DNA from: a virus
Strand: one strand, 5' to 3'
DNA length: 39,464 nt
Virus record (IMG/VR): IMGVR_UViG_3300047175_000261
Span: 1-39,464 of that record
Part shown: positions 5,871 to 18,850 of the stretch, in pieces
How the letters are laid out: each line of letters opens with the position of its first letter
Position numbering within the stretch: the first letter of the stretch is position 1
Translations under genes and position numbers: made by a program
Notes under the pieces: generated by a model
The model's database searches: none
Seen by the model: only the letters and a program-made list of their open reading frames with translations
What the model was told of the DNA's origin: nothing

Positions 5871-6611
5871 CTTGGAGGATTCATTCTGTTACCCCACATT
5901 GCTGTGTGGGCTGGTCATTTCTGCCAGCCTCTCATAGTCGCCTATGAGATCAGACTATCGCTTACGCGCACACTAAGTGGACGTCCTCTTCGCTTAGTCG
6001 TTGCGGGCGAATTATCGATTCCATTTAACCGCCTCATTTCCATGTAGTATTCTTCCTTTTTAATCAATACTTCCGGAGTTAAGTAACGTCCTCGTTGTGA
6101 AGGACAATCTGCGAAATATCGTAGAGCTAATTTAGCTTGTGGCTTCTTAACCCTGAGAAAAGGCAATATTTTTTCTATTACCATCTTAACATCATCTTTT
6201 GCCCGTATAGAATACCTCCACATAGGCCTAAATTTATGATAAGATTTTTCACAATCGATAAATCCTACTTCAAAGAACTCTTTGAAACCTTTGATAGCCC
6301 TTTCTTCTATCATACCCACCCTAAACGTAACATTATAGATGGGATTCCAATTTCGACCATTATCTTTTCCCAATGGTCTGTTGTCCTTTTGTATGCAGAT
6401 AGTCCCTTCTCCATCGAAAAGACCAGCTAAATACAATAATTCTTCCCTCTGATTGTCTGGCATATAACTCCTTATACAGTTCCGTATAATTATAGTATAC
6501 CAGAGATCCCAGTTATTAAGAAGAGGTTTATAGCAGGCAATTTCCCTCCAAATCTAACCTGCTCGTTTATGATACATCCCGTCGCAATCATAAACTATTT
6601 CGGCACGGGTT
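5871..6611 (-). ncRNA. Group I self-splicing intron in the capsid gene
   Basis: The intron core can be traced by eye on the minus strand. P1: exon end GCAU pairs with GUGC in the intron through the required U.G pair. A 9-bp stem pairs 6587-6595 with 6565-6573. P3: CCTCTTC (6526-6520) pairs with GAAGAGG (5991-5985). P7: CGACTA (6000-5995) pairs with TAGTC (5957-5953). The S-like sequence GATAGTCTGA is followed by a perfect 7-bp P9 hairpin with a GCGA tetraloop (5931-5948), and then by two more hairpins (5909-5929 and 5893-5910) before the 3' end. The proposed last base is G5871. The exact splice sites are inferred from P1, the terminal G and frame restoration; an alternative 3' site near 5882 fits less well. 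Confidence 0.85.
5942..6463 (-). CDS. Intron-encoded LAGLIDADG homing endonuclease
   Basis: 173 residues with one clear dodecapeptide motif, LAGLFDGEG, at residues 12-20; its acidic residues (Asp17, Glu19) bind the catalytic metal in this family. A second, degenerate half may follow, but I see only one motif, so it may act as a homodimer. The gene has its own ribosome site (AAGGAG, 4 bases before ATG 6463). Its last codons overlap the P3, P8, P7 and start of P9 parts of the intron core, so coding and ribozyme constraints coincide. It would cut intron-less capsid alleles and drive spread of the intron. The frame is intact, suggesting a functional element. Confidence 0.93.
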   Translation of the reverse strand: MPDNQREELLYLAGLFDGEGTICIQKDNRPLGKDNGRNWNPIYNVTFRVGMIEERAIKGFKEFFEVGFIDCEKSYHKFRPMWRYSIRAKDDVKMVIEKILPFLRVKKPQAKLALRYFADCPSQRGRYLTPEVLIKKEEYYMEMRRLNGIDNSPATTKRRGRPLSVRVSDSLIS

Positions 6612-6912
6612 ATGCAGCAAGACTAAACTCGCTTACACTATGCTTTCGACCGAAAAACGCCATCTGCGCATCGATTTGGTCCCTTTGAGGGATTTGGGCC
6701 GGTGGATCGATTCCCGAATTTCCCAACTGAACCGTAGGAGGGGTCAGTGCCCTTGCTCTTAAGAATCTACATGTGGTTCCACCGTTTGGAGGCATCGCAA
6801 CCTTATCGGCGGGGATAATGTAGTTAAAAGCGGGTGTTGGGACGTATAACATTGCGGGCGCAAGCGACTGCAATATTACGGGACCTAACTGGCCTGTTGT
6901 TGTAATTGACAT
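6612..6912 (-). CDS. Major capsid protein, exon 1 (N4-gp56 family)
   Basis: The first 100 codons plus one base of the capsid gene. It starts at ATG 6912 (MSITTTGQLGPVILQSLAPA), very like the usual start of environmental N4-gp56-type capsid proteins, followed by NGGTTCRFLRARAL and IDAQMAFFG. Unspliced translation would stop at TAA 6612-6610, directly at the proposed 5' splice site, giving a 100-residue fragment. The protein forms the icosahedral shell; the scaffold gene lies just upstream. A strong promoter candidate and a leader hairpin sit 135-190 bases upstream. Confidence 0.88.
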
Positions 6913-11947: not shown

Positions 11948-11977
11948 AATCTAGCACTAAATATTTTAATGCATCAA
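11948..11977 (-). promoter_or_regulatory. Candidate promoter for portal
   Basis: TTGATG and TAGATT are 18 bases apart on the minus strand. The -35 overlaps the end of the SPFH gene. The match is moderate, but the 112-base gap before portal is the longest between leftward genes in this part of the operon. Confidence 0.3.
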
Positions 11978-12864
11978 GTTTTGTTTTGCAATTGAAGTAA
12001 AGGAATGGCTCCCGAAGTAACTTGGGGAAGTTTTCCGTCCCATCGTTGCACCGACTGCCATAAAATCAGCTCTTGAGTGATCGATTGCGATAAAATTGAG
12101 TTGGCCTCCGCTTCGGCATTGGCTTTAAGCAAAGCGCATTTAGCTTCCCCTTCAGCTTTGGCGACTTGTTTTTTCGCTTCGGCTTCCGCTTCTCGAAGCT
12201 CGTTTTCCCTTTGTTGAGCTCGTTGCATCGCTTCAATTTTAGAGTTAAGAGCCACGATGACGTTTTGAGGGAAATGAAAACGACCGATCAAATAGATCCG
12301 AGATAAAACAATCCCCATCTCTTGAAAATCCATTTTTACATGCTGTTCGACATCATGAAAAAAGAACTCTTTTCCGCTGTATAAATCTTCAATACATGTT
12401 TTGGAAGCGGATTTGTTAATGGCATCGCGGATGTAATTTCGGATAAACACATTGGTAATCTCATCCATCCCTCTTCGATATTTTTGGAAAATGGTGGGAA
12501 TTGCATTTGGCTTTAGGTGATACGTAATTCCAATATCTGCATGTACGGCCATTCCTTCGGAAGTTTGAAAACTGAACCCTTCTTTTTCCCCTTCCCACGT
12601 ATTGTTTTGTTCAAAGATCGGAAATTCGTAGACCTTTTTCCACGGTGCGATCCAATGAATCCCCACATGCAACTCTTTTGCTTCAACCCCTTTTGAATTG
12701 CCAAGCATGTCAATCACAACTCCGACATATCCGGGACTGATCATTTTGAAACAAAACAACCAGATAATAAATAAAGAAAATAAAAAAATTGATTTTAATT
12801 TATTATTAAATATCCAAAATATAATTTTAGTAAATATTTTCTCTTGTTTTACTTTCGTTATCAT
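11974..12864 (-). CDS. SPFH/Band 7 (prohibitin-like) membrane protein
   Basis: 296 residues. Residues about 25-41 form a single transmembrane helix (IFLFSLFIIWLFCF), preceded by a basic N-terminus. A Band 7/SPFH domain follows at about 43-220, beginning ISPGYVGVVIDMLG, a typical start for this domain. Next comes an Ala/Glu/Lys-rich coiled coil (about 215-262), the oligomerisation arm of prohibitins and HflK/C, and a short hydrophilic tail. Such proteins build large membrane rings; host HflK/C control FtsH protease and influence lambda lysogeny. The gene overlaps the upstream phosphoesterase gene as ATGA, so they are probably co-translated. The family is clear; the role in a phage (membrane remodelling, host-protease control or counter-defence) is inference. 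Confidence 0.85.
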   Translation of the reverse strand: MITKVKQEKIFTKIIFWIFNNKLKSIFLFSLFIIWLFCFKMISPGYVGVVIDMLGNSKGVEAKELHVGIHWIAPWKKVYEFPIFEQNNTWEGEKEGFSFQTSEGMAVHADIGITYHLKPNAIPTIFQKYRRGMDEITNVFIRNYIRDAINKSASKTCIEDLYSGKEFFFHDVEQHVKMDFQEMGIVLSRIYLIGRFHFPQNVIVALNSKIEAMQRAQQRENELREAEAEAKKQVAKAEGEAKCALLKANAEAEANSILSQSITQELILWQSVQRWDGKLPQVTSGAIPLLQLQNKT

Positions 12865-13547
12865 AATTCAATCCTAATTGGGGCGTTAACGGGTTCGTAA
12901 AATTCGTTCACATGAGAAGCATTGACAAATGTAATCGGATATTTTGATTTAAAACCCAATTGCGTTTCTGTTTCTTTTTTTTTCTTTTCCTTAACCCAAG
13001 TTCCATACTGTTCATGAATATGGCCGAAAACAACAAGTTTTAGTTTTTCGAGAGAGATCAATTTTTTGGTAAGACTTCGAGACCCCACAGATCCTTCGTT
13101 TGTCATATCACGAATTCCAAAGGGGGGTCCATGAGCGATGACAATGTCAACATCATCGGGAATCTTGGAAAAATGCTTTTCCAACTCTTCTTCCGTGCCA
13201 GTAAAAGACGCGCAACGAGGGTTGATCCGATCAAAGGTAAGGGACCAAGGCGTTCCCCAAATTTTGAGCCCTTTAAACGAAGATCCCCAATCCGGCAAAT
13301 AATCTACTCCGTCCGGGAAAAAACCAATATTTGGATATTTTTGAAAAAGATGATCGTGATTTCCTGCAATAAATATCTTTTTTTCATATTTTTGCTCTAA
13401 AATCCAATCCATAAAAACCATCAATTCTTCGTGGCTACCGCAACGGGTCAAATCTCCCGCAACAAGTAAAAGATCGCCTCCCGGCATTTCGGGTGTGTGA
13501 CCATGAAGATCCGCAATGCAGTCAATAATAATCTTTTTTCTAAACAT
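12861..13547 (-). CDS. Calcineurin-like metallophosphoesterase
   Basis: 228 residues with the full metal-binding set in order: DLH (Asp13, His15), GDL (Asp32), GNHD (Asn63, His64), AHG (His139) and GHIH (His176, His178). The spacing and the VAGDLTRCG and HGPPFGIRDM segments resemble the compact MPPED-like class of phosphodiesterases. No signal peptide or membrane helix is seen, so it should be cytoplasmic. The substrate (cyclic nucleotide, nucleic-acid end or phosphoprotein) cannot be told from sequence. Its stop overlaps the SPFH start by four bases, suggesting that the two work together, perhaps at the membrane. It lies between terL and portal among accessory genes. Confidence 0.9.
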   Translation of the reverse strand: MFRKKIIIDCIADLHGHTPEMPGGDLLLVAGDLTRCGSHEELMVFMDWILEQKYEKKIFIAGNHDHLFQKYPNIGFFPDGVDYLPDWGSSFKGLKIWGTPWSLTFDRINPRCASFTGTEEELEKHFSKIPDDVDIVIAHGPPFGIRDMTNEGSVGSRSLTKKLISLEKLKLVVFGHIHEQYGTWVKEKKKKETETQLGFKSKYPITFVNASHVNEFYEPVNAPIRIEL

Positions 13548-13891: not shown

Positions 13892-13928
13892 TTGTTAATT
13901 TTTCCATCGAGTAAACCTTATTAAAATC

Positions 13929-14000
13929 GGGAAATACAGGACTCGAACCCGCAACCTCCGGCGCGACAAGCCGGCATTCTAACCATTGAACTAATTTCCC
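13929..14000 (-). tRNA. tRNA-Asp (anticodon GTC)
   Basis: A 72-nt cloverleaf on the minus strand: 7-bp acceptor (GGGAAAT/ATTTCCC), D arm with AATGGTTA loop, anticodon stem CCGGC/GCCGG around loop TTGTCGC (anticodon GTC), and T arm with TTCGAGT loop. The 3' CCA is not encoded. The T stem contains two G.U pairs. It begins only 3 bases after the last hairpin of repeat array A, so tRNA and array are probably in one transcript and separated by tRNA processing. Confidence 0.95.
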
Positions 14001-18001: not shown

Positions 18002-18661
18002 TTAAAGTTTCTTCAGAAGAACTGCTGTGATGGAACCGTTTGCGATAGGGAATACGGACCCCGAAGGCAATGGGTTCATCGAAACACTTACAACCGAAGC
18101 GTTTTTAAGGGTCAAGATTTGACCTGCTTTCACTTCAACGATCGTTTGCCCGCTTGTATGAGCATTGTCGTCGTTCGGACTTTGAGTAAAGGCCGAATCT
18201 ACCGATCCCGGTAAAAGAGTTGCGTCCAAATACAGCGCAAAACTGAAAGAAGGAACGGGTGAAGGGACGGGGGGTGTCATATTTGCCTGGGCAATCCAGT
18301 TGAGCAAATAAATCCCGTGAGTCAGAAATTTAATTCCACCCGTGCTTGACGCAAAAGAAGTATCAAAATCTGAACTGACTTCAGCTTGCGAATTAAACGT
18401 GACCGTGTTGGTCGCAGAACTGTTAGGTCCTACAACTTGAGACTGGGTCGAATAAACGTTTAAGTACGAGCTCCAAGAATTTCCGGTTGCATCTTTACCG
18501 GGAATCCCTTGGATCCCTTGAGGTCCTTGAAGACCCGTCAGTCCGGTTGGACCTTGAGGTCCGGGAACGCCCTGAATCCCTTGAGGACCTTGCAGTCCGG
18601 GAACTCCTTGAGGGCCTTGATCACAGCAACAGTTGCTACCGTGCGTTGAATCTTTACACAT
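18002..18661 (-). CDS. Collagen-like protein with C-terminal C1q/BclA-like domain
   Basis: 219 residues from ATG 18661 (GGAG six bases upstream). A Cys triplet at 11-13 precedes 14 uninterrupted Gly-X-Y triplets (residues 16-57, mostly GPQ, GIQ, GVP), which should form a trimeric collagen helix; the Cys cluster could lock the trimer. A beta-rich C-terminal domain (about 70-219) with Asn/Ser/Thr-rich strands resembles the C1q/TNF-like trimer heads of BclA and phage fibres. In phages such proteins are usually virion fibres or appendages. It is not in the fibre cassette but at the end of a separate leftward block, so timing and role are uncertain. No membrane anchor is visible. Confidence 0.88.
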
Positions 18662-18850
18662 ATAAACTCCGTGTGATGTTAAAAATCGCACGGCGGAGGC
18701 TGTAACGACGTGCACCATAAGCCGAACAGCCGGCTAGGTGAGTAATCGTCATTACCACATTCCCTTATTTTTCTTGTGATTGTATAATTATTTTTATTTA
18801 AAAAGAACCTATTAATTTAATATCTTTGCAAAGATCGAATCGTTAAAGCA

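Follow-up and report, generated by a model that had tools for sequence, protein, structure and literature searches.

Putative core-less mini introns and ssrA-like peptide ends accompany group I introns in a family of phage capsid genes

The capsid gene on the 39,464-bp virus record analysed here, the whole of which is referred to as the window, is, on comparison with its relatives, interrupted twice, by a group I intron and by a separate 66-nt insert, with a 26-nt exon in between. The insert, a core-less mini intron, appears from its reading frame to put a degradation tag on the unspliced capsid protein. We hold it quite probable that degron, mini and group I intron form a unit in which the intron would splice itself, the mini would serve as its substrate and unspliced capsid would be tagged. 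It is on balance likely that minis are non-autonomous introns, spliced by a neighbouring ribozyme and kept for their degradation tag, while full-size capsid introns would tag themselves.

Exon structure of the capsid gene and its group I intron

The window carries P22-type portal, terminase, Erf, RusA and YqaJ genes, and the capsid gene with its inserts occupies the minus strand, to which all capsid coordinates below refer. ORFs 6912-6610 and 5823-5200 are pieces of a single capsid gene, the latter matching PHROG 1357, 'major head protein', at E 1.2e-10, which upholds an earlier description of the gene as interrupted. Exon 3 was used to fetch 80 relatives, and the 54 with one unbroken capsid match were aligned as an uninterrupted set. 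All of them read FFG-TGC(I/V)INEQV(I/V)(L/I)QD-QEG or deviate at a single residue, and with more flanking sequence the same proteins read DAQMAFFG-TGC(I/V)INEQV..QD-QEGVLAW, again give or take a residue. Spliced alignment of the window to a profile of the 54 uninterrupted proteins, with no preference for boundary bases, placed two inserts of 66 and 675 nt, and a one-base synonymous shift gave group I boundaries at 6648-6583 (U/CGAAAG...GCG/) and 6556-5882 (CAGGU/UAG...GAAUG/AAUCC). The corrected coding sequence of 972 nt and 323 aa joins exon 1 (6912-6649, codons 1-88, ending in TTTTTCGGT), placed by the spliced alignment, to exon 2 (6582-6557, 26 nt), which with its flanking bases encodes TGCIINEQV and is supported by the relatives and the spliced alignment, and to exon 3 (5881-5200), supported by the PHROG match and the spliced alignment. 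The spliced protein contains the conserved 13-residue segment TGCIINEQVILQD.

The first-pass annotation had instead proposed one group I intron at 5871-6611, joining 6612 to 5870. This splice yields an open frame of 323 residues, a length that agrees with the corrected product by coincidence only, the sequence being wrong in that TGCIINEQVILQD is swapped for intron-encoded residues. Its junction, said to align with the family without gaps, reads FFG-RKHSVSEFSLAAY-QEG against the relatives' FFG-TGC...QD-QEG, and the 13 junction residues are found in no uninterrupted relative. The residues missing from the join are encoded at 6582-6557, so that the conserved TGCIINEQV/ILQD codons are stranded inside the claimed intron, and P1 (CAGGU/GCCUGCU) suits the corrected site instead. 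Comparison with intron-less relatives, which the same annotation had suggested as a check, contradicts its splice in all 54 uninterrupted genes, and the single-intron reading is almost certainly wrong. The stop that was placed right at the 5' splice site really closes an LAA-stop peptide within the 66-nt insert. A composite intron that skips exon 2 was also rejected, because the relatives conserve exon 2 in the capsid frame.

The 675-nt intron displays the P1 U.G with the 5' exon, the terminal G (...GAAUG/) and both the P3 and P7 strands of a group I core. The IGS GCCUGCU (6532-6538) forms P1 with exon AGCAGGU, ending in a U.G pair, and P3 is established between CCUCUUC (6520-6526) and GAAGAGG (5985-5991). 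P7 pairs GACUA (5995-5999) with UAGUC (5953-5957), both P3 and P7 covary in the siblings, and P9 is the hairpin CUCAUAG-GCGA-CUAUGAG (5931-5948) with a GCGA loop. The proposal of a group I intron in the capsid gene therefore holds, on P3, P7, the P9 hairpin and the corrected P1. Independent support for the core type comes from covariation among compact sibling introns, of which 21 of the 23 not exceeding 280 nt were aligned (196-253 nt; L046 69.0 and L057 96.2 were left out). Across these 21 introns, 97.6% of the P3/P4/P7 cells are paired, two-sided changes occur at 11 of 16 core pairs, and covariation scores 0.572, compared with 0.224 +/- 0.022 after shuffling (0/500 as high) and at most 0.218 after sliding. 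The Rfam group I model misses even siblings with clear cores. On the window intron RF00028 reached 19 bits, short of its gathering score of 50 (E 0.039 in 1261 nt), and on the sibling intron at the same site of L014 it reached 28.2 bits (E 0.0033). Ten siblings (62 kb) gave no group I match at E <= 0.5, and an overlapping set of ten gave 10 Rfam matches at E <= 10, one of them group I (L014).

The intron houses a 173-aa ORF (6463-5942) for a single-motif LAGLIDADG endonuclease, with the motif LAGLFDGEG and a match to LAGLIDADG_1 (PF00961) at E 1.6e-4 and 23.0 bits, against a curated cut-off of 23.1. It overlaps P7, P3' and P9, and the enzyme had been correctly described as intact and overlapping the core. 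PHROG 5046, labelled 'HNH endonuclease', also matches ORF 5942-6463, and this label does not suit a LAGLIDADG ORF. The enzyme type had been called uncommon in phage introns; one published phage count agrees, PMC12363816 giving 505 HNH, 80 PDDEXK_5, 55 GIY-YIG and 17 LAGLIDADG enzymes in the intron-rich Jug phages, but the type is not rare in this capsid gene family, where a crude regular expression found the strict motif in the longest ORF of 14 of the 69 introns having an ORF of at least 80 codons. LAGLIDADG-like ORFs also lie antisense within the full-size introns L084 143.2, L091 101.0, L102 101.0 and L167 180.2. Both the large intron and its endonuclease are real and fairly ordinary, and by themselves they would add one more member to a known kind.

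Elsewhere in the window, a tRNA gene (13928-14000, minus strand, 67 bits) is the sole Rfam match at the gathering cut-off. A Band 7/SPFH protein and a calcineurin-like phosphoesterase adjoin the portal gene (11974-13547), and a collagen-like repeat protein similar to minor tail and tail fibre proteins is encoded at 18002-18718. A search of a phage collection for the capsid returned a single distant relative (27%). Capsid relatives on genome contigs (L309-L314) fall in six MAGs of six unrelated lineages (Bacteroidales, Chlamydiia, Patescibacteria, Pseudomonadota, Nitrospiraceae and Peregrinibacteria), which are probably mis-binned phage contigs and single out no host.

Mini introns and their neighbouring full-size introns

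Relatives were gathered via exon 3, exon 1 and a short-insert pattern, and 196 loci were reduced to 131 distinct capsid regions, of which 128 were counted (L085, L099 and L111 were dropped as fragment copies or truncated). Eight inserts at gene or contig ends were also dropped (L008, L053, L055, two of L056, L093 315.2, L159 315.2 and L090 215.2). No insert is present in 64 of the 128 genes, and the remainder hold 101 full-size introns (196-1272 nt) and 39 minis (29-79 nt), counts that are not of independent events, since introns sharing a site are related. The richest gene, L093, has five full-size introns and one mini. The 39 minis sit at codons 87, 91, 103 and 113. Their lengths, far under that of the smallest full-size intron, leave no room for a core, and the minis are therefore not filed as group I introns.

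In the window mini (6648-6583), a guide at 6599-6609 provides GCCGAA, which pairs with the 5' exon UUCGGU to form P1 with a terminal U.G, and CCCGU, which pairs with the 3' exon ACGGG to form P10. The mini ends in G and has no catalytic core (P3-P7) of its own. A U/...G/ placement, allowing a shift of at most 3 nt and at most one changed base in the joined exons, is possible for 39/39 minis and 101/101 full-size introns. Each of the four mini sites has a separate guide, preceded by bases complementary to the 3' exon, the guide/exon pairs being GCCGAA/UUCGGU, GUGCAGC/GCUGCAU, GCCCUCUU/AAGAGGGU and GGCCAAG/CUUGGCU. The combined P1 and P10 length exceeds that of at least 99.5% of 1000 shuffles in 38 of the 39 minis, the exception being the L182 mini (74/1000 shuffles), with neither P10 nor degron, and the guides pair with their own site over a mean of 9.8-12 bp against 0-6.5 bp for the guide of another site. 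At site 87 (31 minis) the pair at exon position -4 is C-G in 26 and U-A in 5, and the P10 pair at +3 is U-A in 20, A-U in 5, G-C in 3, C-G in 2 and U.G in 1; in both cases 0/10,000 permutations were as good. Nineteen of these 31 minis were found solely by a pattern that includes part of P10 and the greater part of the P1 guide, which leaves P1 -4, P10 +3 to +5 and the homology-found loci as the only unbiased evidence. The minis behave like the substrate half of a group I intron. Codons 87 and 180, both much-used insertion sites, share the guide GCCGAA and a near-identical exon, TTCGGT/AC(A/T)GG. At mini site 87, L082 carries a full-size intron that is itself tagged, and the minis may thus be deletion derivatives of full-size introns.

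A different reading of the 66-nt insert is a translational bypass element of the T4 gene 60 type, across which ribosomes would hop. The size is comparable (50 nt in T4), a homing endonuclease (mobA in T4) lies nearby and the gap contains a stop codon, as in the short non-coding gap of the T4 gene (PMC3014915). However, known bypassing uses matched take-off and landing codons, and none of the 38 minis that follow a complete codon ends in a copy of the preceding codon, the ground on which this candidate was rejected; in place of such codons the minis have a group I-type guide and a terminal G. Moreover, the P1/P10 guides covary with the exons, all inserts end in G, and a hop would leave the dependence of minis on group I introns unexplained. 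We regard bypass as very improbable.

This dependence of the minis is strict in the genes collected. Among the 128 genes, 64 have neither insert type, 30 have full-size introns only, 34 have both and none has a mini alone (p = 3e-13). The homology-found loci taken by themselves give 64, 29, 14 and 0 in the same order (p = 6e-7), and clustering at 95% identity leaves 125 genes with the same result. The next insert downstream of every mini (39/39) is a full-size intron, 24-168 nt away, and genes with two minis follow the order mini, full, mini, full. In the window, the large intron begins 26 nt downstream of the mini.

Degron-like ends of the unspliced reading frames

The unspliced in-frame reading of the window is GRKHSVSEFSLAA followed by a stop, ending in EFSLAA, and the mini thus supplies an ssrA-type C-terminal Ala-Ala in the translated frame. 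LVA-type variants of the ssrA tag are active. Ends of the form (A/V/T)A-stop occur in 42 of the 101 full-size introns in frame 0, against 0 in frame +1 and 1 in frame +2, and in 37 of the 39 minis in frame 0, again against 0 and 1. Mono-nucleotide shuffles give such ends in 0.6% of cases for full-size introns and in 17.8% for minis, the latter rate being raised by exon 2, from which part of the tag comes. A chance origin of the LAA-stop ends was rejected on these frame and shuffle controls. Of the tagged ends, 53/79 terminate in LAA.

The tags take several forms. In full-size introns a KSSLIDLEL(L)AA segment adjoins P3/P4, FRLAA and KETLLAA are among the separate 5' ends, and QAKAA lies deeper in the core; within minis the tags are LLAA, LLAAA and LMAA. 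A further form is the +1 frame of exon 2 (CTG GCT GCA TAA), entered via a mini of length 2 mod 3, and every one of the 19 site-87 read-through minis has such a length. In this exon 2 frame the stop behind a mini is provided by NTA (ATA or GTA) in 20/20 tallied rows, against 11/89 rows with no mini there; the 20 rows are 18 read-through genes, the decayed L182 and L085, a second copy of L056 that was kept for this tally only, while the read-through mini of L103 lies outside the sequence pattern of the tally.

The Ala-Ala-stop could alternatively be a feature of the RNA or of the termination context rather than a peptide signal, as most tagged full-size introns have the homologous segment SSLIDLELLAA adjoining P3/P4. 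This is quite improbable, given that 11 codon pairs encode the Ala-Ala, that each of the three stop codons is used, and that the tags are specific to frame 0 and occur in several unrelated places (the 5' end, beside P3/P4, P6, the mini and the shifted exon frame).

Minis precede full-size introns that have no degron of their own. Among full-size introns at codon 60 or later, 39 have only their own tag, 36 only a mini, 3 both and 8 neither (p = 5e-13), and the homology-found loci in the same range give 28, 14, 1 and 6 (p = 7e-7). The 'own tag' of L083, one of the three cases with both, ends a 215-codon read-through and is probably due to chance. Cover by tag or mini is found for 0/15 introns before codon 60 and for 78/86 at codon 60 or later (p = 2e-12). 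At codon 143, for example, the introns of L093, L100 and L156 are tagged themselves and lack a directly preceding mini, and those of L084 and L105 (placed at 144.1) have no own tag and are preceded by a mini. The 8 uncovered introns among the 86 are L037 119.2, L047 89.2 (which ends VSA), L082 96.1, L108 65.2, L190 122.0 and 116.2 of L003, L033 and L046. The L108 mini at 103.2 has no degron.

Under another explanation the minis merely hitch-hike on the neighbouring ribozyme, through addiction or constructive-neutral lock-in, and the LAA ends are not functional tags. It would account for the lack of any lone mini, since a mini is not maintainable without a ribozyme, but it does not explain why the AA-stop ends are frame-specific, why exon 2 uses NTA codons, why minis are anti-associated with introns bearing their own tag, or why no tags occur before codon 60. 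Hitch-hiking is thus unlikely, and the best reading is that the capsid introns would mark unspliced products for proteolysis, with core-less minis providing the tag for main introns unable to do so.

Wider and prospective scans bear on the same pattern. The shared tag segment, searched as a pattern with a free gap of 0-12 nt, matched at least 120 stretches of viral contigs. Among the matches listed there were 108 distinct sites, and in 101 the gap length is divisible by three. For 91 of the 101, an open stretch of 60 codons or more leads up to the AA-stop in its frame, against 1 and 0 in the other frames. Still among the matches listed, the capsid consensus is matched by 78 of these 91 frames, at identities down to 24%; 10 others belong to a single cluster with no match, and the last 3 are singletons. 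In a distant clade, at about 46% identity, 7/80 capsid genes contain introns, and no mini was seen in these 7 interrupted genes. Of the five introns at codon 180 in this clade, four end in Ala-Ala (one as GKLEYALAA) and the fifth in QA; the codon 12 intron ends in VKA and the codon 223 intron in LIFA. A site-103 pattern matched 27 stretches, of which 23 were analysed; 15 of the 23 have no capsid match and look like chance matches. This codon-103 prospective scan yielded four fresh capsid genes (L231, L400, L405 and L410), in which 4/4 minis end in AA-stop, two of them as EYALLAAA, and 4/4 lie upstream of a full-size intron at codon 122. From codon 60 onward, 12/13 of the prospective full-size introns have cover, L400 84.2 being the exception, a count that omits the gene-end inserts 315.1 and 316.0 and the repeat contigs L110, L226, L397 and L411. 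An intron at codon 13 is uncovered, matching expectation.

Proposed mechanism, known systems and significance

From its structure, the 675-nt intron would be a group I ribozyme that excises itself, and the 66-nt insert a minimal group I splicing substrate, with P1, P10 and a terminal G and no ribozyme. The most likely agent of mini removal would be the catalytic core of the large intron, which starts 26 nt further on and would dock the P1/P10 of the mini, and another ribozyme or some other factor may act in its place. Before splicing, ribosomes would run from exon 1 into the mini and halt after the ssrA-like -SLAA, the frame and peptide being those read in the window. The tagged capsid fragment could then be degraded by ClpXP-type proteases rather than poisoning assembly. 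In siblings, the tag comes from the 5' part of the full-size intron or else from an upstream mini, directly or through the exon 2 frame shifted by the mini.

The full-size introns share with phage group I introns such as T4 td and Twort the P1 with U.G, the P3/P4/P7 core, the terminal G and an early in-frame stop, a stop soon after the 5' site being common to most group I introns according to a review (PMC3073962). In contrast, here an ssrA-like peptide precedes the stop and some inserts are wholly core-less. With tmRNA/ssrA the system shares a C-terminal Ala-Ala on unfinished proteins, the tag compared being that of E. coli, which may not be the host's. The E. coli tag is AANDENYALAA, with the terminal Ala-Ala as the main ClpXP determinant, and ssrA-like sibling ends here include NEYALLAAA, GEYALLAAA and GKLEYALAA. 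In PMC7652416, the source for the E. coli tag, GFP ending in LAA alone is not degraded and GFP-YALAA is, so that an accessible tail would be needed for degradation. In contrast to tmRNA, here it is the intron that encodes the tag, and ordinary translation of the unspliced message would append it. Degenerate group II and group III introns are short, have no full catalytic core and require help in trans. The minis would differ from these in their group I chemistry, their presence in phage and their one-to-one relation with a neighbouring ribozyme.

Among the titles and opening lines of abstracts returned by searches of the open PMC literature, none described a degron-encoding or core-less group I intron, and no earlier non-autonomous class of group I introns is known; priority is not proven by this, since subscription papers and most preprints fall outside that literature. 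Among the closest papers are one on an out-of-frame HNH insert (PMC11855218) and one on a group I database (PMC11835236).

The erroneous single splice conceals a far more unusual feature, a core-less mini intron with an apparent degradation tag. If the proposed mechanism is true, detecting introns of this sort, of 30-80 nt, requires comparison against conserved exons, and capsid genes of this phage group may be mis-annotated as truncated ORFs ending in -LAA. On the same condition, and as far as a limited search shows, the minis would be the first non-autonomous class of group I introns known, and the neighbouring intron would be a natural ribozyme acting on two introns. Introns could then evolve to render their own failure harmless, the unspliced product being marked for destruction, and mobile introns would be linked to proteolysis, having built a protein quality control that is coupled to splicing.
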